From: Brachionus manjavacas
Lineage: Eukaryota > Rotifera > Eurotatoria > Ploima > Brachionidae
DNA length: 64,000 bases
Assembly: GCA_019054805.1 (NCBI GenBank)
Contig: JAHQIY010000004.1
Span: 5,022,001-5,086,000, forward strand
Direction of reading: 5' to 3'
Below are positions 30,226 to 59,608 of this stretch, piece by piece (position 1 is the stretch's first letter; each line of letters starts with the position of its first letter). Under the pieces are notes generated by a model. That model ran no database searches, was not told the DNA's origin, and saw only the letters and a list, made by a program, of their open reading frames with translations. The translations under genes were made by a program, and so were the position numbers.

Positions 30226-30657
30226 ATTTGAAGCAATTTTTAACAGACCAGTACCTTGGAGATAAGTTCTTTAATTATGAATTTCTCTTATTTTCATTTC
30301 ACTTTATATTATCCAATTTTAAGTATTTAAATCAAAAAAATCTGATTTTAAAATAATCCATTTTAAATAAAGCAAACTTATTCATTATGGACACATAAAC
30401 TTTTCTTTTATGTTTTATTTTAATTTGCAATTTATGAATTTTTTTAATTTTTTTTTTTTTGTCACCCAAAAGGTATTTTTTGAAATAAATAAATAATTAA
30501 TTAATTATTTATTTATTTCAAAAAATCAGATTCAGATTTTTTTGATTTAAATACTTTAAATTGGATAATATAAAGGGAAATGAAAATAAGAGAAATTCAT
30601 AATTAAAGAACTTATCTCCAAGGTACTGGTCTGTTAAAAATTGCTTCAAATTAAATA
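30226..30657. mobile_element. Foldback MITE with ~125-bp near-perfect terminal inverted repeats
   Basis: The left arm (30226-30350) and right arm (30530-30655) are complementary almost base for base. They run from TTTGAAGCAATTTTTAACAG through CCAGTACCTTGGAGATAAG to the ATTTAAATCAAAAAAATCTGA block. Only a few mismatches are visible. TTA flanks both ends, which would fit the 3-bp target preference of PIF/Harbinger elements, but in such AT-rich DNA this is weak. There is no coding frame. The high arm identity implies a recent insertion or arm conversion. Confidence 0.8.
30475..30526. repeat. 52-bp perfect palindrome
   Basis: The bases are symmetric around 30500/30501 with no spacer, and the sequence is entirely A/T except for one G and its partner C. 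It sits in the spacer of the foldback MITE and can extrude as a cruciform. Confidence 0.9.
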
Positions 30658-33385: not shown

Positions 33386-34495
33386 ATTATTTTCTGAGGT
33401 TTTATTTGTCTCCTTAAATTCTTAAAGAAAAAAGCCCTTTTTTTTTAAATAAAAAGCTTGCAATAAAAAATCTAATCATATTATCATATTAAAAGAATTT
33501 TATGAAAGATTTTATGGTAATTTATTTCAAAGAATAAATTATTCAAACCAATTTTGAAATTCAAAACATTTTTTTAATTAATTTTTTCTAAATTAGAATT
33601 GGCTTTAAATTTGATCTATCATGAAAAAAATAAAGTATATTAAAATAATTTGCTTATATTCTTAGTCAAAGAATCGCAAATCGGCAAATATTATTTTTTT
33701 CTAAATACTAAAATTTATTAAAAATTAAAAAAAAATTAAGAAGCTCATTTTTGAATCCTTTTTTAAATATATACTAATTTTAAACTAAGTTTTAATTTAT
33801 TTCATATAATTACATGAAATAATTTTGAAATTTAGTCTAAATTTATCTAGCTAAAATTTCACAACTTAACTTATTTAAATGAAATAAAAATTCGTTTATA
33901 AAAATGTACAAATTTTGTTTCAGTTATCCAAACAAACAAATAGAAAAACAGAAAACAAAACCAAGCTCAGTAATAAGTCTTAAATGATGTCTGCGGAAGA
34001 ATTAAGGGACATGTACAAAAGTTCCAAGCAATCCAATGATTTTAAGCTAAGATTGAATGGTTCGACTTACAGAAAAATTCGAAGTGAATTTTGTCACACA
34101 AAATTGGGCAACACAGTCGTAATTAAAGATAATGGCAAAATGAATGATTTGGAAGATTTGAATAAAAAATATGAAATATCCGAGCCCAATATAGTATATT
34201 CTTTAAATAAAAAAAAAAGATGGCAAGTGGCCACCGAGCTTACCAAAAATATGGAAGATTTTAAAGATGAAAATATTGATGTTACACTTTACGAAACAAG
34301 AAACAGGAACGAGAAAAAGCAAACTGTGTTGCTATTCATAAGAGTCAAGGAGACCAAATAAAAGTTAAAAAAACTTTTGCCAATTTAGAATCAATTAAAG
34401 CTAAAGATTCAAAATGTGATAATCTAAAAAATGTCCAGTATCAGATTGAGTATGCGCCAAAAAAAGATATTTTGAAATATGGGAATAAAAAATTT
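33386..34495. repeat. Segmental duplication, copy 1 (partner 48658-49593)
   Basis: It is nearly identical to 48658-49593 from TTTTCTGAGGTTTTATTTG up to GGGAATAAAAAATTTT. It differs by a segment of about 175 bp present only here (about 33417-33592, bounded by TAAATT direct repeats), one G/T substitution and one lost A in a run. The match includes about 500 bp of 5' flank plus most of the small gene. Confidence 0.85.
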
Positions 34496-34624
34496 TCATA
34501 TTTAATAGAAAGAGATAGAATTTTTTTTATGAAATGTTCAAAGCCTCGTAATTCTGAGAGAAAAAATAAAAAATTCTATTCTGAAAATGATAAATGTCTG
34601 AGTGTTTTGAGTGAGTCCTCATAG
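33984..34624 (+). pseudogene. Unidentified small gene, frameshifted copy
   Basis: The first 111 residues match the 210-residue product at 49082 almost exactly. Then one A is missing from the run near 34315, which shifts the frame, and the frame ends at 34361. If the shift is ignored, the correct frame continues to a stop at about 34624. The part after about 34495 is only distantly similar to the partner: an SRPRNSERKN..KFYSENDKCL segment here against ARSRKELGKN..LYFEYDECL there. The copy is therefore a mosaic of a recently copied 5' part and an older, diverged 3' part. I do not recognise the family: no signal peptide, membrane segment or catalytic motif is visible, and the product is Lys/Asn-rich. 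Confidence 0.6.
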
Positions 34625-35321
34625 ATAATCATTTAGATTCAAAAAATGGAAAAATAACAAAGAAAACAAAGAATATAAAACTAAATTAGAATAATTATGA
34701 AAAAATAAATTTTAAATTTTTGTAAATTATTTTTTGAATAAACAAAATATATTATTTTTTTTTTTGTTTTCTGTCCCATGCTATAGCTTCAGATTAAAAA
34801 AATTATAAATGAAATAAAGTTAAATAAGTTAAAATTAATTAAAATAAGGTAAAGTATTATAAAAATAATATAGCTTAAAATAGAAAAAAATTAAAAATTA
34901 GATATATTAGAATAAAAAGTTTCAAGTTGTCATGATGCAAATTTTTAAATGCTTGATTGTTCAGGGAAAAAAGAAGAAATAGTAAGGTAGCAATTTCACA
35001 GTGGGGTTGGGTATTCGAGGCATCTGTTTAAGCACTTTGATCACTTCTAACGATTTTTAAAAATAATTCTTATTTTTTCAAAAAATTGAAAGTTTAGGAG
35101 AGTTTTAGGTGGGTAGTATAGACTAAAGTTAAAAAATTGGAAAGTCACTCTAATACTAATTAATTCTGATTGAAATTTGTCAAATGATTTAGATTCTATT
35201 CCTTCTTTTTTTCTACCCATCCTCCATACTTATTGAGTGGTTAAACAACAGATTAGTAATTTTTAAAGTATAAGTGAATATTTAATTTACTCGAGTCAAT
35301 TTTTATTTCATTGCGCAAAAC

Positions 35322-36257
35322 GACATCTAGAATTTGACGAAGCGAAAATATAAATTGCATCTAATGATGAGGTCACGAAATGGATGTTTGGCGCTAAAAG
35401 ATGAGCAAAAGTCAACATTTAATGAGCTTAAAATATTGGTCAAGTTAACGCGAATATCTTTTGAAAAAAAAATTGTCCCAGAATGTAAAAACAATCCAAA
35501 AGCTATTTTCTCTTACATCAATAATCAAAGGAAGAGTAAAGATAGAAATAAGATCACTAGTTAACCAAAATGGCGATTATTTCGTAGACAAGGAGACAAT
35601 TGCGAACTTATTAGACGATCAGTTTCAAAAAGCATTTAGTATTGATACCAACGCAGAACTTCCTAGTTTTCAGCCTCGATGTATATATTCCTGTTTGATT
35701 GATAAAAATTTTTTCTCAGAAGCTAATATTGCATTTTAATTGCCTGAAGCATTTAAATTTACTTGATAGAAGGAAATCTTGTGGGAAGGAAGGCATACAC
35801 CCTTATCTATTAAGAAGCTGCGCAATAAACTTTGCCAAGCTTTTGGAACCTATTTTCAAGACTAGTTTTATGTCCGGCAAGTTACCAAATGAGTGGAAAG
35901 AGGCAAATATTACTCCTAAGCAAAGAAGGAAAGAAAACCGAACCGGAAAATTACAGACCAATTTCACTGACATCAGTTACATGTAAAATAATGGAAAGAA
36001 TTATCAAGAAAGAAATGGTTGCCCATCTTATCAAATTTGACCTGATTGCGCCCCAGCAACATGGTTTCGTTTCTAAACGTTCATACCTGACAAACCTCCT
36101 TGAAACAATAGACTCAGTAACAGAAGCATTAAATCGTGGTTTCGCTTCAGCGGTTGTGTTTATGGATTCGGCTAAAGCATTTAATAAAGTTTCACATAGA
36201 GCTCTGATCAAGAAACTTGAAGCTTATGGTTTCAGAGGTAACCTTCTTAATTCCTGA
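35322..36257 (+). pseudogene. LINE reverse transcriptase fragment (unit A)
   Basis: Three overlapping frames make one RT when read across two frameshifts. They are a linker with NNPKAIFSYINNQRK (about 35485-35525), the CGKEGIHPYLL and LPNEWKEANITP blocks (about 35780-35915), then the ENYRPISLTSVTCKIMERI block (35950-36000), QQHGFVSKRSYLTNLLE and VFMDSAKAFNKVSHRAL (to about 36210), ending truncated at 36257. The second half, from 35832, stays open for 141 codons. The catalytic FADD block is absent because the element stops before it. It is a different family from the - strand LINE beside it. Confidence 0.85.
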
Positions 36258-36558
36258 ATTTTTGTCACGTGATTAACACACTGTCAATTCGTGATGACTG
36301 CTATTTGAAATTTTACATTTAGGTCCCGATCCTTAAAGCAGTGGTTACAAACATCATTTTACGAACGGCACTAGTTTTATTCTTGTATAATTAGTTACAA
36401 TTTTAAATAAGAAATTTATTCATTATTTCTTTCTATGAAATTATTATTTGTTCTCTCTCTCTTGTATTTAACATACTAAGCTTTTGCCACAGAGTGACCA
36501 CTTTCTATTTTAAACTTTAATAAACTATTAAACAGTACAAGCTAGTTTTTTTATATAT
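36258..36558. other. Spacer between two oppositely oriented LINE fragments (unit A)
   Basis: AT-rich, no motif; probably the shared 3' flank of the two elements. It is repeated in unit B at 39041-39341. Confidence 0.5.
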
Positions 36559-37391
36559 TTAACAATAAAAAAAAAACAAATATTTATCAATTCCTTTCTG
36601 ACTTTTTAAAAAAATAAAATTAAAGTTAATAAAATTAGATAAAAAAGGCAGAAAACAAAGAGTTGTTCTTGGCGATAAGTGCTCAGAATGGAAAGATGTA
36701 TTAAGTGGTGTACCCCATGTATTCTGAATTGCTTGTAGTTTTTTGATATCATTTTCTGAAAATGAATTTAAGCAAGGAAAAGAATAGTCTAAAATAGATC
36801 CGACTAAAGATTTATATAAATTTCCTAGTGTGTTTTGAGTGAGACCCCATTTTTTATTTGACAATATCTTAATAGATTTAGCCTTTTGTTGCAGCGTAAT
36901 TTCGTCTACTAATGTATTAAAATTTTATTTAGAATCAAATTTTATACCAAGAAACTTGTTTTCTTTTTGGTTCATTATTCTGTTTCCATAAATTTTTAAG
37001 TTTAGATTATCACTCTCGTTTTTGTACCTAGAAGACTACTGAACACGACTTTTCAACTGATATCTTCATTTTCCATTAAATAAGCCATTGTTCTAGTTCG
37101 TTGGTGTGCTTATTAATTTTATTTTCTAGGTTCCCTTTTTTGTTATAAATGAAGAATGTAACTAGATCATCTGCGAAAAGCAGAAGGTATTCGTTATTTG
37201 TTTTGTTTCTTTTTGGGATGTCATTAATATATATACTAAATAAAAGAGGACTAATTACTGAGCCTTGAGAAACACCTGCAGTTATTTTATATTCTTCGTT
37301 CGAATATCATTCACATTTACCTTAAATGTCCTTCTATCTAAAAAGGATCCATTGCAGTTAGTCAAGTATGAGGTGGATATGATGTTAGCCG
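36559..37391 (-). pseudogene. 3' half of a LINE reverse transcriptase (unit A)
   Basis: Reading downward from 37391: a GVSQGSVISPLLFSIYIND block (about 37280-37215), the intact catalytic FADD in a LLLFADDLVTFF context (about 37180-37150), then a linker with stops and the C-terminal LYKSLVGSILDYSFPCLN..NDIKKLQAIQN segment (about 36820-36720), ending at 36559. It is the duplicated tail of the larger element at 39342-42572. Confidence 0.85.
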
Positions 37392-40182
37392 GTGAGTCCT
37401 CATAGATAATCATTTAGATTCAAAAAATGGAAAAATAACAAAGAAAACAAAGAATATAAAACTAAATTAGAATAATTATGAAAAAATAAATTTTAAATTT
37501 TTGTAAATTATTTTTTGAATAAACAAAATATATTATTTTTTTTTTTGTTTTCTGTCCCATGCTATAGCTTCAGATTAAAAAAAATTATAAATGAAATAAA
37601 GTTAAATAAGTTAAAATTAATTAAAATAAGGTAAAGTATTATAAAAATAATATAGCTTAAAATAGAAAAAAAATTAAAAATTAGATATATTAGAATAAAA
37701 AGTTTCAAGTTGTCATGATGCAAATTTTTAAATGCTTGATTGTTCAGGGAAAAAAGAAGAAATAGTAAGGTAGCAATTTCACAGTGGGGTTGGGTATTCG
37801 AGGCATCTGTTTAAGCACTTTGATCACTTCTAACGATTTTTAAAAATAATTCTTATTTTTTCAAAAAATTGAAAGTTTAGGAGAGTTTTAGGTGGGTAGT
37901 ATAGACTAAAGTTAAAAAATTGGAAAGTCACTCTAATACTAATTAATTCTGATTGAAATTTGTCAAATGATTTAGATTCTATTCCTTCTTTTTTTCTACC
38001 CATCCTCCATACTTATTGAGTGGTTAAACAACAGATTAGTAATTTTTAAAGTATAAGTGAATATTTAATTTACTCGAGTCAATTTTTATTTCATTGCGCA
38101 AAACGACATCTAGAATTTGACGAAGCGAAAATATAAATTGCATCTAATGATGAGGTCACGAAATGGATGTTTGGCGCTAAAAGATGAGCAAAAGTCAACA
38201 TTTAATGAGCTTAAAATATTGGTCAAGTTAACGCGAATATCTTTTGAAAAAAAAATTGTCCCAGAATGTAAAAACAATCCAAAAGCTATTTTCTCTTACA
38301 TCAATAATCAAAGGAAGAGTAAAGATAGAAATAAGATCACTAGTTAACCAAAATGGCGATTATTTCGTAGACAAGGAGACAATTGCGAACTTATTAGACG
38401 ATCAGTTTCAAAAAGCATTTAGTATTGATACCAACGCAGAACTTCCTAGTTTTCAGCCTCGATGTATATATTCCTGTTTGATTGATAAAAATTTTTTCTC
38501 AGAAGCTAATATTGCATTTTAATTGCCTGAAGCATTTAAATTTACTTGATAGAAGGAAATCTTGTGGGAAGGAAGGCATACACCCTTATCTATTAAGAAG
38601 CTGCGCAATAAACTTTGCCAAGCTTTTGGAACCTATTTTCAAGACTAGTTTTATGTCCGGCAAGTTACCAAATGAGTGGAAAGAGGCAAATATTACTCCT
38701 AAGCAAAGAAGGAAAGAAAACCGAACCGGAAAATTACAGACCAATTTCACTGACATCAGTTACATGTAAAATAATGGAAAGAATTATCAAGAAAGAAATG
38801 GTTGCCCATCTTATCAAATTTGACCTGATTGCGCCCCAGCAACATGGTTTCGTTTCTAAACGTTCATACCTGACAAACCTCCTTGAAACAATAGACTCAG
38901 TAACAGAAGCATTAAATCGTGGTTTCGCTTCAGCGGTTGTGTTTATGGATTCGGCTAAAGCATTTAATAAAGTTTCACATAGAGCTCTGATCAAGAAACT
39001 TGAAGCTTATGGTTTCAGAGGTAACCTTCTTAATTCCTGAATTTTTGTCACGTGATTAACACACTGTCAATTCGTGATGACTGCTATTTGAAATTTTACA
39101 TTTAGGTCCCGATCCTTAAAGCAGTGGTTACAAACATCATTTTACGAACGGCACTAGTTTTATTCTTGTATAATTAGTTACAATTTTAAATAAGAAATTT
39201 ATTCATTATTTCTTTCTATGAAATTATTATTTGTTCTCTCTCTCTTGTATTTAACATACTAAGCTTTTGCCACAGAGTGACCACTTTCTATTTTAAACTT
39301 TAATAAACTATTAAACAGTACAAGCTAGTTTTTTTATATATTTAACAATAAAAAAAAAACAAATATTTATCAATTCCTTTCTGACTTTTTAAAAAAAAAA
39401 TAAAATTAAAGTTAATAAAATTAGATAAAAAAGGCAGAAAACAAAGAGTTGTTCTTGGCGATAAGTGCTCAGAATGGAAAGATGTATTAAGTGGTGTACC
39501 CCATGTATTCTGAATTGCTTGTAGTTTTTTGATATCATTTTCTGAAAATGAATTTAAGCAAGGAAAAGAATAGTCTAAAATAGATCCGACTAAAGATTTA
39601 TATAAATTTCCTAGTGTGTTTTGAGTGAGACCCCATTTTTTATTTGACAATATCTTAATAGATTTAGCCTTTTGTTGCAGCGTAATTTCGTCTACTAATG
39701 TATTAAAATTTTATTTAGAATCAAATTTTATACCAAGAAACTTGTTTTCTTTTTGGTTCATTATTCTGTTTCCATAAATTTTTAAGTTTAGATTATCACT
39801 CTCGTTTTTGTACCTAGAGAAGACTACTGAACACGACTTTTCAACTGATATCTTCATTTTCCATTAAATAAGCCATTGTTCTAGTTCGTTGGTGTGCTTA
39901 TTAATTTTATTTTCTAGGTTCCCTTTTTTGTTATAAATGAAGAATGTAACTAGATCATCTGCGAAAAGCAGAAGGTATTCGTTATTTGTTTTGTTTCTTT
40001 TTGGGATGTCATTAATATATATACTAAATAAAAGAGGACTAATTACTGAGCCTTGAGAAACACCTGCAGTTATTTTATATTCTTCGTTCGAATATCATTC
40101 ACATTTACCTTAAATGTCCTTCTATCTAAAAAGGATCCATTGCAGTTAGTCAAGTATGAGGTGGATATGATGTTAGCCGGTG
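37392..40182. repeat. 2.78-kb direct tandem duplication, unit B
   Basis: Second unit, joined head to tail to unit A. Offsets between matching positions grow from 2781 to 2788 through four small indels in runs. Beyond 40182 the - strand LINE continues, so unit B carries the original right border and unit A the original left border. Confidence 0.9.
38105..39040 (+). pseudogene. LINE reverse transcriptase fragment (unit B)
   Basis: Same content and same two frameshifts as the fragment at 35322-36257. The translations I can compare are identical. The shared defects show that the duplication followed the decay. Confidence 0.85.
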
Positions 40183-42572
40183 TTTCCTAAATCCAGATTG
40201 CTCCTGGATAAGGAGTGAATTTTTTTCCAAATAATTGTAAAATCTTGAAAATACTTTTCGTTCCAGTAACTTTACTTAGCAACTCGTTATACTAATTGGT
40301 CTATAATTTAAAGGATCTTGTAAAGAAGAGGCTTTTTTATGAATCATAGTAATGTTCAATATTTTCCATGCTTTAGGGATTATCCCTTCTCGAAGAAATA
40401 AATTAATAAGTTCTATTATTTCTATTAATGAATTTCTAGGTAAGTTTTTTAACATTAGATTATGAATTTAGTCAGGTCCTGATGCCGCATCATTTTTCAA
40501 TCTTTTTAAAGCCATAATTTATTCATTTAAGCAAATTGAATAATTAAAATTAGACTGATCATAATTTCTAAAGAATTCAGAGTTAGATTTAAGTATTTCG
40601 AAATCTTTATCACAATCTATTAAATCAGAATTAGGACTAAATATTGAAGATAGGAGTTCTCCAAAGCATTTTCCCTTTTCTTCATTAGTTTTGAATTCCT
40701 TCATTCTGGAATCAAACCAATTTTGATTCCAGAATTTTTTAATTTGAATTTTTTTTATAGAGGCCTTAGGCTCAAATGTAAGTTGATTAAATTTTTTCTT
40801 GAGATTTTGACAGCGAGTTTTTTGAAAGTTTCTACTAACTTTCCTGCGTTCTTTTATCAGAATAACAATGTTCGTGGGAAGACTGGTTTTGTAGATTTTC
40901 TGAAAATGATAAGGAATACTTTTATGAGAAGCAGAAATGATTTTTTCTGTAATTTTATCATTTAATTGATCTATTGTGAAGGAACTTTCAGTGATATTCA
41001 CTATTTGAAGATTCAAAATCTCGCTAAATAATTGCCAGTTCCCTTTCTTATAGTTAAACTTTTTAGCTGCTGATTTATTTTCTAATTGATAGCCCATAGA
41101 AATCGATGCTTCGATTGGGAAATGGTCACTAGTCATATCTTGACTATTTAGAACAACTGTTTTAAAAAACTCTAAGTTCAGAAGCATATTGGGTGGATTA
41201 TAAAGACTGAATATAAACAATTCATTATTCTTTCCTAAGTTCATTTTTATACAAAGGAGTTCGGAATTGAATTCCTCGTAAGAAAAATCTTGTATAAATT
41301 CGATTCCTTCTTTAATTAAAATAGCTACTCCTCCTCCGTACTTGTTGCGTGGTTTTGTTAAGAACTGATAATTTTGAAAATCAAGATAAATATTTGCCTC
41401 ACTCAAATCTATCTTTAATTCATTGAGCAAAACAATGTCGGGACATTTTTGAGCTAAAAAATTGTCTAAGAGATGAACCCTACTAGGTAAATGAAGACAA
41501 TTTTAGTGTGTAATTACTAACCTTGTTTTATTAAGAGGTTTTGTTCTTAAAGTTGATTTATTTATCTTCTTGTTCATTCTAAATTTTCTTCAATGCTGTT
41601 TTGACTGGCAGTTTGCTGACCAATTTCGTTAGATGATTGATCTACTTGAATTGAACATTCAGTTGTTGAACTGTTTGATTCAGACTCGAAGGTACTGTCG
41701 TTTTGATTTTCTAAGACAACTAATGGTTTCTTTGATTCATTTTCGGTGAGCTCTTTTTCATTTGGATCAGATTCGGGAAATTTCTTGGTTTGATTTCTGG
41801 TTTGGAAAAAATTCTCAGTCTCATTCTGATCAATTGAGCGTACATTGACACGTGACTGGCATATTGGTAGAAAATCGTTTAAACGACTTACCAAAGCTTC
41901 TTCTAAAACTGGAGTTTAAAGGTCTTTTGGGCTTTTGGGATATTACGTCATTGAAATTTGTTGGCTGATATCCAGGTGTTTTTGGCATCACATTTTCATC
42001 ATTATCTTTTTGTCAGCTTCAATTATTGATTGCGTTTCTTCTTGGTCGATGTAAAGATTATTGTAGTCAGTCTTTTTACTTTCAAACGATTTAAGCTTTT
42101 CTCTCAACTTCTTTTGGGAATGATATTCTCACTCTCTGACACCATTTTTCCTCTCGGGTCTATCTTTATATTTTTCTTCAGCAATGTGTTCAATATAAAG
42201 TCCATCAATTCGAACAGCATTAAAGAAGGTTTCAAGTCTATGATTTTCGAAATCAGAGGGCAATAAGTGAAAACGAAAAGTACAATACTTTCTGAGATCC
42301 AGGACTTTATTTGCATCTTCAAATCTGAAAATGGTTCCATTGATATTGGTGTCACGATCGAAAATTTTGGCAACATTAAAAGCAGCATTAAACTCTATTA
42401 TCCAAACTTTGTTTGAAGAGAAATTGTAGATACTTGTGATCGCATCATTTTCCACTTGGTTCAGGACGACCTCTAGTGCACTAAATAAGACTTTATGACT
42501 AATCGGTTTGTCTAACCTCTTCAAGTTTAGCTTGACCGAACTGAAGCAACATTGCCAACACACAACTTTCAA
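39342..42572 (-). mobile_element. Near-full-length but defective two-ORF LINE
   Basis: ORF1 (about 42572-41574) has a ferredoxin/RRM-like part (WIIEFNAAFN..YCTFRFHLLP) and a polar tail. It is broken by one in-frame TGA near 42130 and one frameshift. Its TGA stop (41576-41574) overlaps the ORF2 ATG (41577-41575) as ATGA. ORF2 begins with an apurinic-type endonuclease: VLLNELK, GGGVAILIKEG, FSLYNPPN and TSDHFPIE are visible. A Trp-like position is now a stop, and the central GDxN segment is deleted. The RT follows with PLNYRPISITS, EQSGFRKHR, GVSQGSVISPLLFS and FADD, interrupted by stops and missing the KAFDxVWH block. It cannot make its own machinery. Confidence 0.85.
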
Positions 42573-48657: not shown

Positions 48658-49593
48658 TTTATTTTCTGAGGTTTTATTTGTCTCCTTAAATTAGAATTGG
48701 CTTTAAATTTGATCTATCATGAAAAAAATAAAGTATATTAAAATAATTTGCTTATATTCTTAGTCAAAGAATCGCAAATCGGCAAATATTATTTTTTTCT
48801 AAATACTAAAATTTATTAAAAATTAAAAAAAAATTAAGAAGCTCATTTTTGAATCCTTTTTTAAATATATACTAATTTTAAACTAAGTTTTAATTTATTT
48901 CATATAATTACATGAAATAATTTTGAAATTTAGTCTAAATTTATCTAGCTAAAATTTCACAACTTAACTTATTTAAATGAAATAAAAATTCGTTTATAAA
49001 AATGTACAAATTTTGTTTCAGTTATCCAAACAAACAAATAGAAAAACAGAAAACAAAACCAAGCTCAGTAATAAGTCTTAAATGATGTCTGCGGAAGAAT
49101 TAAGGGACATGTACAAAAGTTCCAAGCAATCCAATGATTTTAAGCTAAGATTGAATGGTTCGACTTACAGAAAAATTCGAAGTGAATTTTGTCACACAAA
49201 ATTGGGCAACACAGTCGTAATTAAAGATAATGGCAAAATGAATGATTTTGAAGATTTGAATAAAAAATATGAAATATCCGAGCCCAATATAGTATATTCT
49301 TTAAATAAAAAAAAAAGATGGCAAGTGGCCACCGAGCTTACCAAAAATATGGAAGATTTTAAAGATGAAAATATTGATGTTACACTTTACGAAACAAGAA
49401 ACAGGAACGAGAAAAAAGCAAACTGTGTTGCTATTCATAAGAGTCAAGGAGACCAAATAAAAGTTAAAAAAACTTTTGCCAATTTAGAATCAATTAAAGC
49501 TAAAGATTCAAAATGTGATAATCTAAAAAATGTCCAGTATCAGATTGAGTATGCGCCAAAAAAAGATATTTTGAAATATGGGAATAAAAAATT
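48658..49593. repeat. Segmental duplication, copy 2 (partner 33386-34495)
   Basis: Partner of the copy at 33.4 kb. It lacks the ~175-bp segment, a loss that fits slippage between TAAATT repeats or an insertion in the other copy. Confidence 0.85.
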
Positions 49594-49714
49594 TTGTGCT
49601 AGGTCTCGTAAAGAATTAGGAAAAAATAGAAAGCTCTACTTTGAATATGATGAATGTCTGGGTGATTTCAGTGAAGAAAGTGAATTGGGAGAAAATTTTT
49701 CATCTGAAGTCTAA
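49082..49714 (+). CDS. Unidentified protein, 210 residues, intact copy
   Basis: Open from ATG to TAA. Hydrophilic, Lys/Asn/Glu-rich, no signal peptide or membrane segment, acidic C-terminus (residues about 190-208: GDFSEESELGE). A DFKLRLNGSTYRKIRSEFC segment near residues 19-37 and a KKKRWQVATEL segment near 77-87 could be a small folded domain. I do not recognise the family. The 5' flank is shared with the broken copy at 33984, so both may have had the same promoter. It lies in a transposon-rich region, so it could be a transposon passenger or an accessory ORF, but there is no direct sign of that. Confidence 0.55.
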   Translation: MMSAEELRDMYKSSKQSNDFKLRLNGSTYRKIRSEFCHTKLGNTVVIKDNGKMNDFEDLNKKYEISEPNIVYSLNKKKRWQVATELTKNMEDFKDENIDVTLYETRNRNEKKANCVAIHKSQGDQIKVKKTFANLESIKAKDSKCDNLKNVQYQIEYAPKKDILKYGNKKFCARSRKELGKNRKLYFEYDECLGDFSEESELGENFSSEV

Positions 49715-50200: not shown

Positions 50201-53200
50201 CTAACCAAGAACAGGAACAGCAAACGAATTTTTCGAAATAATTTCCTTTTTTTTCGAGAAATCTGGTTCTTGAGAATTAGGCAAATAGACCTTTTCGATA
50301 AAAGTCGAGTCCTTGAAAGCATTCGGATCAATCTCGAGAATTTTGAAATAGGACTGAGCAATGCCTTTTTGTATGATTGAGTTGAATTTGCGGAAGTAGA
50401 CAAGCATTAACAATATTTCATCACATGTGATCTCTTCGTTTCGTCTGGCTGTAAATAATTTATTTTTGAAGAAAATTAAGTTAAATTGATGGAAATAAGC
50501 AAAAATTAATAAGGACTCACCAATCATGTATTGGCGCAGTGCGGTTCCTATCTTGTCTCTGGTGTCGGTGATTGAGCTGTAGTCTTTTAAGTATTTGCTT
50601 CCTTTTAGGAAAAAATTTAAAAAAAATAAAAATATTAAAATAAAGATATTAAAATAAAAAGGTAAAAATGGAAAGAAAAAATTTAGTGAACAAGAAATAC
50701 CTGATGATATGACTAAAAGTGCCGAATACAAAGCGTATTCTTTGTCATCGAGTTTGAATTTTTCAAATTTTTCATGAACAGTTTTCATGAATTGAGATGT
50801 TTTGTAAAAGACTGGAAAAATTTTTAAAAAATTTTCCAACTTTGTTTGATCGCAATTGAAGTAATTGTAGTGTTCGCATTTACGCTGTAGAGACAGCATA
50901 ATGACAGAATGAATCGAGCACTTGATTAGTTCTTCTTTGTCCAAAGTGCCAAATTGAATGAATTCTTTTGAGAGTGTTATTTAATTGTAAATATTTATCG
51001 AAAATAAAACAAAATTTAGGTAAAAAATAAACTTACCAGGTATGTTTCCCAAAAAATTGGCCAAATGTACAGCATACTTGTAGAAATACTTCAGCACTTC
51101 GCTCAGATACATGTAATAGTTTTCAGTGGTGGTTGGCGAAAAATTGAACGAGTTGACAGGCTGATAGCCATTGTAAGTCAATGCCAATTGTGATGTCTGA
51201 TACGATTTGCCGAAAAAGTCCTTGTTGATCAAAATAAGCGGATTCAAATTCAAGTGGTAAAATTTGTAAATTGTTTTTATTAGATCCTTGATCGAGTCAC
51301 TCAGTGAATCTTCGATTGATGTTGACAAAGGTGGTAGACTTTGAGAATACATCAAATTGCTATTTGCGCTTGAAGTTGGCATTTCTGTGGACAACAGTTC
51401 ATTTTGTCCAAATTGGTGGGTACCATTTGGCCAACCGTAATATCCGTTGTAATTTAGATTTAGATTGTTAAAACTGGGTGCATCTCCAATCTTCAGATTA
51501 TCTGCATTTATGTTATTGATTATGTATGTTTGGTTTGTGTATTGATTTACGTTTATTATTTGTTGGCCACTATTCGCAAGATTGGATGTCTGATAGTTCA
51601 TATTGGTCATTTCGTATTCAGATAGACTTGTGCTTGTACCATTTTCACTTTTGACTCGCTTTATTTTACGCTGTGTAGCCAAATAATCTGCATTTGGTCG
51701 AACTCCTCTGCTTTGCCATTCGAGAATGTTGTGCTTGAATAAATTGGACTGACGACCAATTCTGCTGTCTTTTATGAATAAATTTTAAATTTTTAATTTC
51801 AAGTCTTTAATTAAAAATAAAAAAAATAAAAAAAAATTAAGCTTGAAAATTGATGCTTCTTTTTTTTTCACATTCAAGAACTTTACTGACTAAAACTCCT
51901 TTTTGAATACGAAACCAAAATTATATTCTCTTATTGTCTTTACTAATTTCTCGATTTGAAAAAAAATAAATTTTTAATGAATTCAAATTTAGATTGAAGA
52001 TAGGCTATTCAAATATATCACTTAAACCAGATTATCACGGAAGAGACTATACAGGCAATTCGTTAAAAACTGCTCACCGAGAGACAACTTCTTTTCCAAT
52101 AGAACAGTACCCCTATGGAATGAGCTACCACCAGAAGTTACGAGTGCACCAACAGTGAACGCATTTAAAAATAGATATGATGATTTCAAATCAAACTAAC
52201 ACTTTTAATTTTATCTTTATTTTTCATTTCTTGAATTTATATTTAAAACTTGTTGTTAAATCACACTACTTATCTGCCATAGCCATGTACTTGAGGTACC
52301 TAGCTCCGCGGTTTAAAACCCGTTGCAGATTAACTTATAATAATAATAATAATAAACAAAATCTAGTTAAGTACTTGTTTTTTTGAGAGTAACAATTTTT
52401 TTTGTTACAACAAAGACAAAATGAGTTTTTTTTATCAAAACCATGTAAAAAATCGGTTAATAAGTTTCCAATAAATTTAGAAAAATAATTTAGCCATCAC
52501 TTGCAGTATTTAAATTTAATTTTGTATTAAAAAATAAAATTAGACTTTTTGACAAATCTGGTAATTAATTTTTTAAATAAATACATCGACCTATGCTTTG
52601 ATCGTTTCCTTAGTCTTCTTTATTTATATCTTTTTTTGCATAAAAGTTTATCAAAAATTGGAAGATGTATCTATTGTTAAAATTTCAATTGAAGATAATT
52701 TATTGAAGGAGCTATGCCGACTTGTTATTTAAAGGGAACATTCCAAAATTCAAATTAAAACATGTAAGATTCATTTGATGTTTTTTATTTAAATTTTTGA
52801 AATTCAAAAATAGATTTAATTAAAGAAAAAATAATGAAAAAAAAAGATCTAAACTCTTAGTGATTCGAAAGCTACGAGGAAAAAATCATCCTTAATTTTG
52901 ATTCATTTTTGTATAAATAAAAAACGAATTAAAGGATCTTAAAATATCAATTTTGACTAATACTTATTTTTTTCAGTTTTCTTAAAGTTTTTGAAATCTT
53001 TTTACTTTAATTTTACATGTTCATGTCTTTTACTTCATAAGAGCAGTGTTGAAGCTTTTATCTTAGAATGGGTCAAATAGATAAAAAAAAACAAAATTAA
53101 AAAAGAATAAGTTTATCATAAATATATTGAATAACAAATCTGATTTCTCGCAAAATTTTTAGAACTCAAAGCAACTACAAAATCTTAAGTTGAATATCAT

Positions 53201-56037
53201 ACTTAGATTATATTTTTAATTAATAAAAGTAAGTAATAGTTAGATTTACAGTATCAATTGCCAAAAAAAAAATTTGATTGAGGCGCTTTAACACTAGAAG
53301 CACCAACGAGTCAAAATGACTCTTTTTCGATTTTTGGCCGCTAAAATCTAAGTTAATTTTTGCTATTTGATCACAATTTTTTTTTCAGCATAAAAATAAG
53401 AATAACTTTCTAAATTAACTAAATTCAAATAAAAAAAATATTTCCTTTGTACAAAATCAAGTATATACTACCAGAAGCACCAAAAAGAGTCATTTTGGCT
53501 CGTTTTTTAATTAAAATTTTGAATTTATCTACAAATTAATTTTAATGGATGAGTCATAAAATATTTATAAAAAGTATACAAATCTTTAAAAACTGACTTA
53601 AATCCTAATACTTGAAGGAAGATAAGCAAATGAAGATAAAAAAATGCAAAAATTAAAGTTTGCGTATTTTACATGAAAGACGAAAAATTGGTTAAAAAAA
53701 AAATGAATTCATTAGAAGATAAAATTTTTGCAAGATACTTTTTTTTAGCCAAATTTTTATTTTTACTCAATTAAAATTAAGTTTTGAATAGATAAATAAT
53801 AAATTATTATCCATTTTATCCATTAGATTCTATTAAAACAAGTCATTTTGACTCGTTTTGGTGCTTCAAGTAGTTTCAAATTTTCGTGCTTCTAGTGTTA
53901 AAAAAAATATGACAACTAGATAAAATTCTATCATTTAAACCTTTAAGCCTTTAAATTAGGCTGACTTCCTTTCTGAGATGCCTGAGACTGATATAAAAAT
54001 AAGTTCTAAAATAACGTAAATAAATTCTTTCAAAAAATAAAGTTTAATATCTAGTTGCATTTCAAAAAGTTAATTCAGTTTAAACTATTTGCATGATCTT
54101 GCTTTAAATTCAGATATCTATGAAATCAATTTTTGTTATTTTTGTTGTTAATTAAATGTCTTTTAAATAATTAAAAACAATTTTATCCGTTAAAATATGT
54201 AATGTGTACAAAAATAATTTTTTTTAAAAAAAGCTTGACTTTAATCTCATTTGCTTGCTTACAACTTTTTCTGGCTTGACTTTAACAGAAAAAAATAATT
54301 TAAGCTTGATTTTCCCAGTTTAGATATTTTTGGCTTGACTTTCTCGGTGAGACTGATAAAAAAAAAATTTGCTTGACTTTACCAGATTTTAGCTTGATAT
54401 TTCCCTTTACTCTGAAATCAAAGGTTTTTGCCATGAAATATAATTTATTTTTGTTCGAAATTTTTACTTTGAAATAAAATGAACATTTTAAAGATACGAT
54501 TTAAAATAGAATTTAAAATCAATAACAGAAATAAATCGAAATAAAAAATTTAATTACATTACACGATCAATATTAGATTTGTTGATAAAAATTCGAAATT
54601 TTAATCTTAATCAAATAATTTTAACAGTTATAATTGGTGATTTTTTTCAAATAGAAAACTATAATTTTTTAGTAGTTCTAGTGTTTTAATTTTATTTGAT
54701 TCCTTTTATTATATTTTTTAACTACCAGGATCAATTTTTAAAAATGTTTTTATTTCACCATTTATTTTTTTACAATACATAATTTACTTAACAAATGTAT
54801 GTTAACTAAAGAAAAATAAACTCACCTAATCAGCCTTAACTTGGTGTACTTCCTCAAATACAAGTAACCAAAAATAGAAGAAAATTGCTAATATTTAAGT
54901 TAACAATTTTGTTTAATTTAATTGATTTTTTTACAAAAAATAAATTCTGTTTTAAATAAAATTCATGTAAAAATGTTTTTCTTATTATTTCTTTCTAATA
55001 GAAGAAACGTTAAGATGACCGCACTTTTTGTTTGAGAAAATACGGTAGTTTTTATCTATAAGATAAACTTGATTATCATACCACATAAAAGACCATAAAA
55101 AAAATTCAAGAATTTTAAGAAATTGAACTTCTTTATCACCCAACACATGGTAAAACATTGTTTTTTATCTTTTCCTGAAAGACTCACTCGTTCAAAGAAC
55201 GATATTTTACTAACCAAGACCAAATTGAAGCTAATAGTGAAGGTATTTTTAGCTTATATGGTTAAAAATGAAAGAAAAAAATATTTAAAATTCATACCAA
55301 ATGGTATAAATTTTCTAATTTTAATTCTTATGATATATTAGGAGAAGTAAAAATTTACTTTGTGCAGACATCTTAGCTTTCAGACACTTTTGAAATCTAC
55401 AGTATCTGCACATATTTCGAGTGGCAGCGCTAATCTCACAAGTACCATTCTCCATGCACCGATATCTTTCTGGCGCTCTTTCCTTTATACTTCTTCGAAA
55501 AAAACCCTTAAATTTTTTTAAATTTCAGGACTTTAAAAAAAATAAGAAAATCACTTTGCATCCTTCACAAGTAATGGCTCCAAAATGAATGCCAGAAGAT
55601 GGTGCCTTACAAACAGCACAAGGAAAACGCTTGAAAATTTCAGCCACAGGAGGATTATTTGTGTTCTCTTGAGGATAGAAAAATAAATTTTTGGTAATTC
55701 GATTAATCAATATTCAATGGTTTACCACTGTTGGTCATGCCAACTTCTTTGCATTTTTGGAATCGACAAAATTGGCACTGTGTCCTCGTTGTTCTGACAA
55801 TTACACAATCTTGATTCCGAATACACTTGTACTTGGCATCTTCTCCATTGATGCTTCTCAAAAAAAATTTCTAAATAAACCCATAAATGTTTGGCAGTAA
55901 AAAAAATTCAAATTTACTTTGCATGCTTCGCAGGTAACAGCTCCACAGTGCCATCCGCTAGACGGTTCACCACACACTTTGCATGGCTCGAATTTTTCGC
56001 CCGTAAAACTCAACAGCGTTGCATTTCCATCCGACAT
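50201..56037 (-). CDS. Nuclear receptor with two DNA-binding domains (2DBD-NR), paralogue A
   Basis: Ligand-regulated transcription factor family. Exons, all with GT..AG borders in phase: 56037-55918, 55870-55726, 55667-55555, 55506-55359, 51768-51037, 50964-50701, 50601-50521 and 50448-50201. Total 1851 bases, 616 residues. The first zinc-finger domain (from about residue 19, CKVCGEPSSGWHCGAVTCEACKK) has the CEACKK P-box; the second (from about residue 105) has CEGCKG. This is the combination described for invertebrate 2DBD receptors. The first domain reads KFFLRSI after the P-box and ends CQFCRFQKCKEVGM; the second ends CRYCRFQKCLKAKM. The ligand-binding domain spans exons 5-8 with the LGNIPEFIQFGTLDKEELIK signature helix region. 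Intron 4 (55358-51769) is 3.6 kb and filled with transposon sequence. The C-terminus after NSQE (PDFSKKKEIISK..) is unique to this copy. Confidence 0.9.
50267..51790 (-). repeat. Homogenised tract, receptor A copy (partner 56974-58496)
   Basis: Exons 5-8 with introns 5-7 are almost identical to the partner. The only difference I noticed is one A in a run near 51025. Similarity ends abruptly at both borders: inside the last exon after TTCTTGAGAATTAGG, and just past the exon 5 acceptor. Confidence 0.9.
52010..52356 (+). mobile_element. 5'-truncated LINE 3' end inside receptor A intron 4
   Basis: The frame ending TAA at 52197-52199 reads KNCSPRDNFFSNRTVPLWNE then LPPEVTSAPTVNAFKNRYDD, the usual C-terminus of jockey/CR1-type RTs. 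A short 3' UTR with a GGTACCTAGCTCCGCGG block is followed by an (AAT)n tail (about 52335-52355), typical of LINE insertion. It lies antisense to the host gene. Confidence 0.85.
52400..53287. other. Receptor A intron 4, featureless part
   Basis: AT-rich; no motif or frame. Confidence 0.5.
53288..53901. mobile_element. piggyBac-type MITE (606 bp) flanked by TTAA
   Basis: TTAA at 53288-53291 and 53898-53901 flank inverted ends CACTAGAAGCAC. Inside are three copies of GAAGCACC..A followed by a palindromic GAGTCAAAATGACTC word (53308-53322, 53487-53501 variant, 53840-53854 variant). TTAA target duplication with C-starting ends is the piggyBac hallmark. There is no coding frame, so it depends on a transposase elsewhere. 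Confidence 0.85.
54231..54405. repeat. Cluster of six GCTTGACTTTA-like motifs
   Basis: Copies start at about 54233, 54274, 54304, 54333, 54371 and 54392, all in the same orientation. The consensus is GCTTGA-C/T-TTT followed by A/C/T-rich CAG. Spacing is irregular (21-41 bases). It lies in receptor A intron 4. It could be a decayed minisatellite or a transcription-factor site cluster. Confidence 0.6.
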
Positions 56038-56219
56038 TTTATCTTCAAAAAAAATTATATTCAACTACCTTGTTGGTTCTATTCAATTAATTTTCATAGA
56101 CTTTTGGTTCACTTTTACAGCCATAAAGAGATAATTTTTTAATTCGGATCGAAACAAAATCTGAGAAAAAAATTATTATTTTTAAATGTATTTTTAATAT
56201 TTTTTTATTTCCGATCATA

Positions 56220-56262
56220 ATATCTGTCCTGAAATTGAGTTCACCTCTTTTTTGGACAAGAA
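56220..56262 (-). promoter_or_regulatory. Conserved upstream block of receptor gene A
   Basis: About 43 bases, 183 bases upstream of the ATG, are shared with receptor B (59565-59608): TTCTTGTCCAAAAAA, AGG, and AATTTCAGGACA followed by ATAT. TGTCC and GGACA form an inverted repeat around a variable centre, which here contains AGGTGAAC, resembling a nuclear receptor half-site. Confidence 0.6.
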
Positions 56263-56934
56263 GTGTTTATTTAATAATTACTCTGTTTAACAATTTTTAA
56301 AAATCGAATTGGTTGGTTTTGTAAACAATAAAAGGTATAACAAGTTAGATTTAAAATGGAGTCAACTTTAAGAGAGATCCATGGCTTCGGTCTAGATGAA
56401 TTATTCACTTATAGATAATATTTGGAATATAAATATATCTATGCTTTTTTTAAAGCAAAAATTTAGTTTTATTCTATAAACCAATAAACTGAATAAAGCA
56501 TAATAAAGTGAAAAGTCCCAAGTATCCGAAAACTTGGTCAAAAATTTACTAAAACTATTCTAAAAAGGCATTTAATTAAAAAATATCACGCATAATTTTT
56601 TACATTTTTGATATTTGTTAAAATTTATTGGATGAAAATTATTCTTTTGTTTTGAGTTAATTTAGTAAAATTTTCAATCAAGCAAGATTTTATTGGATAG
56701 AAAGTATTAAAAATAATTTAAAAAATTTATATTTTTTTTAACTATAAAACATGATGTATCCTCTAAGATTTTAGAAACAAGCAAATTAAGATAACATTAG
56801 AAAATGATTTTGATTATTTTAAGACTTTATTTAAAATTATAAAAATAAAATTCAAAAAGCTCGCCGACAACAAAATAAATAGGTTCTAAAAAATTTTCAA
56901 AATCGGAAGAGAAATAACAAATGTAGGTTCAAAG
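56263..56934. other. Spacer between the two receptor genes
   Basis: About 670 bases, AT-rich. It must hold the promoter of receptor A and the 3' end of receptor B. AATAAA on the minus strand at about 56825 could end the receptor B transcript. Confidence 0.5.
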
Positions 56935-59232
56935 TTAACAAGAATTGACTTTTGAATCATTAGACTTTTCAATTTCTTGAGAATTAGGCAAATAGACCTT
57001 TTCGATAAAAGTCGAGTCCTTGAAAGCATTCGGATCAATCTCGAGAATTTTGAAATAGGACTGAGCAATGCCTTTTTGTATGATTGAGTTGAATTTGCGG
57101 AAGTAGACAAGCATTAACAATATTTCATCACATGTGATCTCTTCGTTTCGTCTGGCTGTAAATAATTTATTTTTGAAGAAAATTAAGTTAAATTGATGGA
57201 AATAAGCAAAAATTAATAAGGACTCACCAATCATGTATTGGCGCAGTGCGGTTCCTATCTTGTCTCTGGTGTCGGTGATTGAGCTGTAGTCTTTTAAGTA
57301 TTTGCTTCCTTTTAGGAAAAAATTTAAAAAAAATAAAAATATTAAAATAAAGATATTAAAATAAAAAGGTAAAAATGGAAAGAAAAAATTTAGTGAACAA
57401 GAAATACCTGATGATATGACTAAAAGTGCCGAATACAAAGCGTATTCTTTGTCATCGAGTTTGAATTTTTCAAATTTTTCATGAACAGTTTTCATGAATT
57501 GAGATGTTTTGTAAAAGACTGGAAAAATTTTTAAAAAATTTTCCAACTTTGTTTGATCGCAATTGAAGTAATTGTAGTGTTCGCATTTACGCTGTAGAGA
57601 CAGCATAATGACAGAATGAATCGAGCACTTGATTAGTTCTTCTTTGTCCAAAGTGCCAAATTGAATGAATTCTTTTGAGAGTGTTATTTAATTGTAAATA
57701 TTTATCGAAAATAAAACAAAATTTAGGTAAAAATAAACTTACCAGGTATGTTTCCCAAAAAATTGGCCAAATGTACAGCATACTTGTAGAAATACTTCAG
57801 CACTTCGCTCAGATACATGTAATAGTTTTCAGTGGTGGTTGGCGAAAAATTGAACGAGTTGACAGGCTGATAGCCATTGTAAGTCAATGCCAATTGTGAT
57901 GTCTGATACGATTTGCCGAAAAAGTCCTTGTTGATCAAAATAAGCGGATTCAAATTCAAGTGGTAAAATTTGTAAATTGTTTTTATTAGATCCTTGATCG
58001 AGTCACTCAGTGAATCTTCGATTGATGTTGACAAAGGTGGTAGACTTTGAGAATACATCAAATTGCTATTTGCGCTTGAAGTTGGCATTTCTGTGGACAA
58101 CAGTTCATTTTGTCCAAATTGGTGGGTACCATTTGGCCAACCGTAATATCCGTTGTAATTTAGATTTAGATTGTTAAAACTGGGTGCATCTCCAATCTTC
58201 AGATTATCTGCATTTATGTTATTGATTATGTATGTTTGGTTTGTGTATTGATTTACGTTTATTATTTGTTGGCCACTATTCGCAAGATTGGATGTCTGAT
58301 AGTTCATATTGGTCATTTCGTATTCAGATAGACTTGTGCTTGTACCATTTTCACTTTTGACTCGCTTTATTTTACGCTGTGTAGCCAAATAATCTGCATT
58401 TGGTCGAACTCCTCTGCTTTGCCATTCGAGAATGTTGTGCTTGAATAAATTGGACTGACGACCAATTCTGCTGTCTTTTATGAATAAATTTTAAAAAAAA
58501 ATTTTCTTTTTTTTTAAGCTTACTTTTGGCAGACATTCCTACTGAAATGCATTTCTGGAATCTACAAAATCTACACATGTTTCTAGTAGCTGCACTGATT
58601 TCACAATTACCGTTCTCTAAGCATCTATATCTTTCAGGTGCTCTTTCTTTGATACTTCTTCTAAAAAAGCCCTTTTAATTAAATAAATGATTAAATGATA
58701 TTTTTTTTTATTTAATTTATTTTACTTTGCATCCTTCACATGTAATTGCTCCAAAATGAATACCAGATGATGGTGATTTGCATACATAGCACGGAAATCC
58801 TTTGAATATCTCAGCCACTGTTGGACTATTCGAATTGTCTTTTTTATAAAAAAAATATATAAAATCAACTGGTATTCAATTTATTTTTCAATTATTTTAT
58901 ACCATTTATTGTCATTCCAACTTCTCGACATTTTTGGAATCTACAATATTGACACTGAGTTCTGGTGGTTCTGACAATCACACAATCTTTGTTTCTTATA
59001 CATTTGTATTTGGCATCTTCTCCATTGATACTCCGCAGAAAAAATTTCTGTCATAATTAAACTATTAACTTTGATTATTTACTATTTTCACTAGATTTAA
59101 ACAGTATTTTACCTTACAAGCCTCACAGGTAACTGCACCACAATGCCAGCCACTCGATGGTTCCCCGCATACTTTGCAAGGCTCAAACCGATCCTCTTGG
59201 ATCATCGAAAAAGTGTTTATTTTATGAGTCAT
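56935..59232 (-). CDS. Nuclear receptor with two DNA-binding domains (2DBD-NR), paralogue B
   Basis: Exons: 59232-59113, 59047-58903, 58838-58726, 58671-58524, 58474-57743, 57671-57408, 57308-57228 and 57155-56935. Total 1824 bases, 607 residues. The lengths of exons 1-7 (120, 145, 113, 148, 732, 264, 81) equal those of paralogue A exactly. DBD1 has Cys19/22/36/39 with a CEACKK P-box; DBD2 has Cys105/108/122/125 with CEGCKG. The hinge and ligand-binding domain fill residues 176-607. Intron 4 is only 49 bp, against 3.6 kb in A, so B keeps the compact ancestral form. The DBDs differ from A at many synonymous and some amino-acid sites, whereas exons 5-8 are the same except for the last residues (EIEKSNDSKVNSC here). 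I chose the first in-frame ATG; frames further upstream have no ATG. Confidence 0.92.
56974..58496 (-). repeat. Homogenised tract, receptor B copy (partner 50267-51790)
   Basis: Mirror of the tract in receptor A. It covers hinge, ligand-binding domain and three introns. The ends coincide with loss of all similarity on one side and return to diverged homology (exon 4) on the other. Confidence 0.9.
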
Positions 59233-59564: not shown

Positions 59565-59608
59565 ATATTTGTCCTGAAATTCGGCACATCCTATTTTTTG
59601 GACAAGAA
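59565..59608 (-). promoter_or_regulatory. Conserved upstream block of receptor gene B
   Basis: Counterpart of 56220-56262, placed 333 bases upstream of the ATG. The outer arms are the same; the centre reads AGGATGTGCCG and has one base more. Confidence 0.6.

Follow-up and report, generated by a model that had tools for sequence, protein, structure and literature searches.

Partial homogenisation of paralogous genes by gene conversion is a well-known process, as the available parts of two reports illustrate (PMC3966223, PMC3728101). In C. elegans, the tandem paralogs col-12/col-13 and fog-2/ftr-1 share near-identical tracts that include intron sequence and lie between dissimilar flanks, a pattern read as conversion, and conversion was reported most between direct repeats a few kb apart (PMC3966223). 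In the copepod Tigriopus californicus, conversion produced a mosaic of high and low divergence within the paralogs GOT1p1 and GOT1p2, giving rise to new combinations (PMC3728101). The locus described here resembles these systems and consists of two tandem nuclear receptor genes (gene 1 and gene 2) of the rotifer Brachionus manjavacas, located within positions 5,022,001-5,086,000 of contig C4 (8.9 Mb) of a 114-Mb assembly in 61 contigs; this whole stretch of 64,000 bp, with a GC content of 26.7%, is referred to as the window. It differs from the C. elegans cases in that those involve collagen and F-box-type genes with orthologs at hand to test conversion, and in that col-12/col-13 were homogenised over the open reading frame (ORF) and not over one domain half (PMC3966223); GOT1p1 and GOT1p2 encode an enzyme, were studied with population data and present no module split of a transcription factor (PMC3728101). 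The partial homogenisation of these tandem receptor genes is real and clean, and recent interlocus gene conversion between them is the best reading of it and a probable one.

Siglec-11 and Siglec-16 are kept alike by gene conversion. Paired Siglec receptors such as Siglec-11/16 are described, in the part of the source available, as joining a common ligand-binding part to different output parts, as in the present pair, but they are cell-surface immune receptors with opposite signalling, whereas genes 1 and 2 keep the same DNA-recognition stretches (PMC8198044). In searches of the open-licence literature, judged from titles and the starts of abstracts, no apparent case of conversion between nuclear receptor paralogs was found, and the nearest matches dealt with GC-biased conversion or merely cited conversion. 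The closest described receptors are those with two DNA-binding domains (2DBD) classified by Wu and LoVerde in 2023, in which the available text makes no mention of 'gene conversion' (PMC10497141). Because that tree uses DNA-binding domains (DBDs) only, a ligand-binding domain (LBD) with a separate history would not show in it.

The gene models are as follows.

59232-56935, minus strand: gene 2, a complete 8-exon 2DBD nuclear receptor gene of 607 amino acids with an open spliced frame
59232-59113, 59047-58903, 58838-58726, 58671-58524, 58474-57743, 57671-57408, 57308-57228 and 57155-56935, minus strand: exons of gene 2
56037-50201, minus strand: gene 1, an 8-exon 2DBD nuclear receptor model of 616 amino acids with an open spliced frame
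56037-55918, 55870-55726, 55667-55555, 55506-55359, 51768-51037, 50964-50701, 50601-50521 and 50448-50201, minus strand: exons of gene 1

All 14 introns of the two models have GT-AG borders, and exons 1-7 are equal in length between the genes. In a Pfam scan, run on the gene 1 protein, zf-C4 was matched in two stretches (E 9.6e-48) and Hormone_recep at 34.7 bits against a cut-off of 23.5; gene 2 has the same domain layout by its gene model. The best PDB matches of the common LBD were LXR-beta chains (E 1.1e-5). Introns 5, 6 and 7 of gene 1 (within 50449-51036) measure 72, 99 and 72 bp, each a multiple of three; intron 5 of gene 2 measures 71 bp, owing to a one-base indel.

By the criteria of Wu and LoVerde, the predicted proteins of genes 1 and 2 are both classed as 2DBD receptors of group A (2DBD-NRA). 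Each has two C4 zinc-finger DBDs followed by one LBD, the P-box pair CEACKK-CEGCKG, and a G-box of the form RXGRQ(P/S), here RIGRQS at the start of exon 5; the candidate AF-2 core, FIEKVY, has K at the position where E, Q or R is given for this group. The histidine at the fifth residue after the G-box (NLFKH after RIGRQS) points to rotifer subgroup A1, which in the published classification, so far as its text was available, unites these P-boxes, this G-box and H at that position, and for which two genes, CAF0776353 and CAF0776371, are given in B. calyciflorus and one, RNA38473, in B. plicatilis (PMC10497141). Two further 2DBD genes of this genome, on contigs C15 and C14, differ from this pattern. 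C15 has Q at the A1-diagnostic position, as an A4 member might have, and is A4-like; C14 is A5-like, with the P-box module CEACKK-CEACKG, which the same source assigns to rotifer A3 and A5, and A4 and A5 are given there as monogonont-only (PMC10497141). Together with the low GC and the 114-Mb size, a gene set of this kind points to a monogonont rotifer, probably Brachionus.

The two halves of the genes were compared over the following segments.

50267-51789, minus strand: tract copy in gene 1, comprising the last 21 bp of intron 4, exons 5-7 with their introns, and exon 8 up to the private tail
56974-58495, minus strand: tract copy in gene 2, the counterpart of the gene 1 tract
55359-56037, minus strand: gene 1 exons 1-4 with the two DBDs, the diverged half
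58524-59232, minus strand: gene 2 exons 1-4 with the two DBDs, the diverged half

The tract copies aligned over 1,523 positions with 0 mismatches and 1 gap, which is a homopolymer indel of intron 5. Chance does not explain such identity, and the absence of substitutions puts an upper bound of about 0.2% on the divergence of the tract by the rule of three. The tract contains the G-box RIGRQS, the hinge, the LBD and the candidate AF-2 core. Its edges are exact, with not one further identical base on either side. The 5′ edge lies within intron 4, 21 bp ahead of exon 5, and the 3′ edge follows FIEKVY and LPNSQE, beyond which each gene has an unrelated private C-terminal tail (gene 1, 21 residues; gene 2, 12 residues). 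The common block thus meets a large heterology at its 5′ edge, and at its 3′ edge the conserved coding sequence ends. A genome-wide DNA search with the tract returned two full-length copies, those of genes 1 and 2 themselves, and no further full copy, the five other matches being pieces of only 52-77 bp at 78-85% identity.

Exons 1-4 have the same lengths in both genes (120, 145, 113 and 148 bp), and only 393 of 526 bases are identical. Over 175 whole codons the proportion of synonymous differences (pS) was 0.845, which is saturated, that of nonsynonymous differences (pN) was 0.105, and 142 of the 175 residues were identical; judged from these values, the pattern is that of an old duplication under purifying selection. 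As a possible guide to the donor, third-position GC was compared between DBD exons and tract (gene 1, p 0.18; gene 2, p 0.005), although the modules differ in composition anyway. A preliminary description of this DNA, made from the sequence alone, had proposed tandem 2DBD receptors with alike ligand-binding and diverged DNA-binding halves, with exons 1-4 equal in length and widely different in DNA, exons 5-8 and their introns identical save one homopolymer base, and introns homogenised by something other than selection on protein. All of this was borne out, as was its expectation for synonymous differences, which are saturated in exons 1-4 and lacking in the tract; the last 15-28 residues that it gave as different are in fact the tails of 21 and 12 residues, and it did not bring up the 3,590-bp intron 4 of gene 1. 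Purifying selection at the protein level was rejected as the cause of the identity, since no substitution occurs in 1,523 bp that include three introns and all synonymous sites.

The identity of the ligand-binding halves was also not what the family would predict. Between genes 1 and 2 the DBDs are 87.5% identical (140 of 160 residues), against 59-60% to C15 and 45-46% to C14, the C15 and C14 pieces being hand-joined. In two LBD blocks C15 shares only 24 of 56 and 17 of 53 residues, fewer than in its DBDs. The LBD is thus not slow to change as such, and a diverged pair of LBDs would therefore be expected in genes 1 and 2, where an identical one was found.

These data support the view that genes 1 and 2 stem from the old tandem duplication of a single 2DBD nuclear receptor gene, because they are closest to each other, have the same exon structure and share an upstream element.

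56225-56262, minus strand: upstream element of gene 1, TTCTTGTCCAAAAAA..AATTTCAGGACA, found as a genome pattern match
59570-59608, minus strand: upstream element of gene 2, the other genome match of the same pattern

The pattern has two matches genome-wide, one before each gene, and none when reversed; as it was built from its own two sites, this shows uniqueness and not significance. The alignment of the upstream regions is weak, its score being reached by 24 of 1,000 shuffles. An element before both genes would nevertheless fit duplication of the whole gene. The element, of 38-39 bp, includes TGTCC and GGACA as inverted halves.

In the favoured account, about 1.5 kb, starting at the end of intron 4 and running to where the conserved coding sequence ends, would recently have been copied from one gene to the other by non-reciprocal conversion, presumably through repair of a break with the neighbouring gene as template. 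Both ends of the tract coincide with a loss of alignment between the genes, one at the heterologous 3.6-kb intron 4 of gene 1 and the other at the C-terminal tail, which is not conserved, and this loss may be what halted the copying. The near-identity, the abrupt edges and the inclusion of introns are as expected of conversion, and a diverged paralogous 5′ flank is provided by exons 1-4, though 3.6 kb of gene 1 intron intervenes.

A parallel was found in the same window, where a second homogenised tract joins two copies of another gene (pair Y).

33589-34496, plus strand: copy Y1 of the second homogenised tract, with the 3′ end of the gene beyond it diverged
48687-49595, plus strand: copy Y2, with an intact ORF of 210 amino acids at 49082-49711

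Y1 and Y2 are identical in 906 of 907 gap-free tract columns and in 61 of 90 columns of the adjacent flank, which is the last part of the same gene. Shuffling confirmed the homology of this flank: its local score was 74, whereas the highest of 2,000 shuffles was 52, and at the protein level E was 5.5e-6. A third copy, Y3, lies 2.5 Mb away at C4:7,580,420 (locus L057, C4:7579401-7582400). It matches Y2 in 805 of the 907 tract columns and in 83 of 95 in the flank, and matches Y1 at 93.4% over the part aligned by blastn, the first ~94 bp of the tract having no Y3 counterpart. A conflict between tract and flank trees is thereby demonstrated within this genome, for pair Y only. The flank-side edge of this tract coincides, by eye, with an insertion of ~39 bp in Y1; the other edge is less clear because 34 further identical bases occur in Y1 beyond an extra stretch of ~170 bp. 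No Pfam family was matched above cut-off by this gene. Y1 looks damaged, its frame being shifted by one base within a run of A.

The mirror image of the pattern in genes 1 and 2 is shown by two tandem receptors located at 2.7224 and 2.7249 Mb of contig C7.

C7:2722430-2722716 and C7:2724926-2725212 (L037 1531-1817 and L043 1504-1790): mirror-image receptor pair

Over 264 bp of DBD exon these two genes differ by a single synonymous change, whereas their LBD segments, compared over 145 residues, are 38% identical and their N-terminal parts do not align. Conversion between genes 1 and 2 is supported by the pair Y parallel, with its third copy, and by this receptor pair.

Several observations weigh against conversion. 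In exons 1-4 no identical run longer than 20 bp is left; had the LBD halves been equally diverged, conversion could hardly have begun, unless earlier rounds of it had maintained their similarity. No diverged paralogous flank was detectable beyond the 3′ edge of the tract, where the tails are unrelated and the flank score was reached by 517 of 1,000 shuffles (low-stringency blastn of the flanks was uninformative in this AT-rich DNA). Conversion does not strictly call for such a flank, and in a pair of this age non-coding flanks would in any case no longer align. A further receptor pair on C7 shows that segments are copied locally in this genome with no homology visible in their flanks.

1.365 and 1.353 Mb of C7, 12 kb apart (L031 1393-2590 and L032 1393-2592): further receptor pair

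These two copies are 99.2% identical over 1,200 bp and their flanks are not alignable; they could equally have arisen by pasting and were counted as neutral. Lastly, pasting of the half would likewise have left gene 1 with a long intron 4.

51769-55358, minus strand: intron 4 of gene 1, 3,590 bp
53288-53901, strand not assigned: high-copy repeat in intron 4, resembling a miniature inverted-repeat transposable element, with TTAA at both ends and inverted terminal repeats beginning ACACTAGAAGCAC

The counterpart of this intron in gene 2 measures 49 bp, and the remaining 13 introns of the two genes measure 47-99 bp. The repeat within it has 39 other scored copies at 90-94% identity and 314 first-look candidates in the genome; we take it to resemble piggyBac-type elements, and the intron presumably also holds the 3′ end of a long interspersed nuclear element.

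The main rival to conversion, which we consider unlikely, is that the ligand-binding half was pasted in beside the DBD exons of gene 1 without any prior homology. By template switching or other local duplication, 1.5 kb would have been copied to a site 3.6 kb downstream of gene 1, which at that time had no ligand-binding half of its own, through loss or from the start; gene 1 would then be a new chimera or a split locus. The restriction of the 3,590-bp intron to gene 1, the absence from it of any older LBD remnant, the lack of a paralogous 3′ flank and the abrupt edges and unrelated flanks of the L031/L032 receptors would all agree with this, and a 2.8-kb tandem duplication at 34611-40188 of the window indicates that local duplication happens here. 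Survival of an old gene 1 LBD in intron 4 was itself rejected, as tblastn of the LBD gave no match there at E up to 10. Random breaks would, however, have had to fall by coincidence within the 49-bp intron 4 of gene 2 and within its last 12 codons, and the ligand-binding half of gene 1 has the right orientation and splice phase, with the frame open to a new stop. The long purifying selection on the gene 1 DBDs also suggests a working receptor before the event. The preliminary description had named 'gene conversion or replacement' together; these are different things, and while recent homogenisation stood, with conversion its best explanation, pasting had to be set apart as a rival on account of the missing 3′ flank and the 3.6-kb intron.

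It is doubtful that gene 1 makes a DBD-only product, with exon 4 remaining unspliced to so remote an exon 5. This would be a short protein, perhaps a competitor of the gene 2 receptor, with the LBD half silent, and this would be compatible with either origin of the tract. Intron 4 stands far outside the 47-99 bp of the other 13 introns, and a stop is met soon on reading past exon 4. GT-AG sites, a matching splice phase, a frame open through all exons and a stop located beyond the tract speak for the full-length model.

An assembly artefact, through collapsed, misjoined or over-polished copies, is very improbable. Near-identical copies elsewhere, on contig C11, differ mostly by gaps, so that indel error in the assembly is possible, but both copies of the 1.5-kb repeat are flanked at either end by unique sequence within an 8.9-Mb contig, an arrangement that would have needed long reads to assemble. 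General homogenisation by polishing is also contradicted by the other receptor pairs, which keep their differences (8 mismatches in 1,200, 9 in 287 and 38 in 1,064). Unequal crossing-over was rejected, since sequence downstream of the donor would come along and no similarity extends beyond the tract.

Under conversion, both receptors are predicted to have the same ligand pocket, LBD dimer surface, G-box and DNA-recognition stretches, and to differ in the N-terminus, D-boxes, linker and tail. The P-boxes CEACKK (residue 36) and CEGCKG (residue 122), and the 22 residues from the start of each P-box, are identical in both. Of the first 175 residues 33 differ, with 13 of these in residues 2-15 and the other 20 in the D-boxes (IRNQD/IRNKD and MENGT/LENGN), the linker between the DBDs, scattered DBD positions and the end of DBD2. 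Because the P-box stretches are identical, the half-site preference of the two receptors is likely to be the same, and the differences between the products would narrow to dimer geometry, spacing, N-terminus and tail. The 'different DNA-binding surfaces' of the preliminary description were therefore overstated, since the P-box stretches are identical and the G-box, a C-terminal extension that contacts DNA according to the available text of PMC10497141, lies in the common tract. In flatworms, the LBDs of 2DBD receptors are described there as forming homodimers without pairing with RXR (PMC10497141), and because the LBDs of genes 1 and 2 are identical, mixed dimers of their products would be expected by analogy.

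Conversion here would change which protein modules go together. More generally, when conversion affects only part of a transcription factor gene, the modules that read the ligand and the DNA can come to have separate histories, and phylogenies built on the DBD only, as in PMC10497141, or on the LBD only would then conflict and lead to wrong orthologies and names. Provided that both genes are expressed, two receptors would read one signal while their upstream regions, dimer geometry and tails evolve separately, a natural and testable domain swap. The opposite case on C7 is the most interesting part. A tentative extension, possible but not probable, is that recurrent conversion between tandem neighbours re-assorts the nuclear receptors of this rotifer module by module and in both polarities, with two DBD sets on one pocket here and one DBD with two pockets on C7; the insertion in the gene 1 intron would have been the barrier that let the DBD halves escape, and the common LBD would lead to mixed dimers.

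The remaining receptor copies were surveyed by an all-against-all comparison of 27 loci, some overlapping, from a receptor search with 56 matches; the two C4 genes were represented only by their DBD regions and parts of tract copy 2. At a threshold of at least 80% identity over at least 90 bp, four matches were obtained: L031/L032, L037/L043, L040/L044 and one of 90 bp at 84%. In L040 (851-1914, contig C29) and L044 (839-1902, contig C11), a DBD-bearing ORF is 96.4% identical over 1,064 bp on two contigs; the ORF beside L044 we take to be transposon-like, and this pair was set aside. Four receptor-bearing stretches, L047-L050 (C11:2069001-2115000), were examined apart from this comparison; they contain near-identical copies that reach 9 kb in length and lie in both direct and inverted orientation, one alignment of 9,255 bp, for instance, having 9 mismatches and 50 gaps. 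These are ordinary segmental duplication.

Within the 64-kb window, three pairs of at least 800 bp at 99% identity or more were found, one of which is a tandem duplication of a retroelement-bearing segment. One 60-kb control stretch of contig C2 had no such pair, only a minisatellite and diverged repeats, and as a single control region says little. The tandem duplication (34611-37400 and 37392-40188) is of a 2.8-kb segment at 99.7% identity and starts in the last codons of Y1; it carries what are presumably reverse-transcriptase-like ORFs. A self-complementary stretch at 30221-30656, with 448 aligned columns at 77% identity, is probably an old palindromic element.

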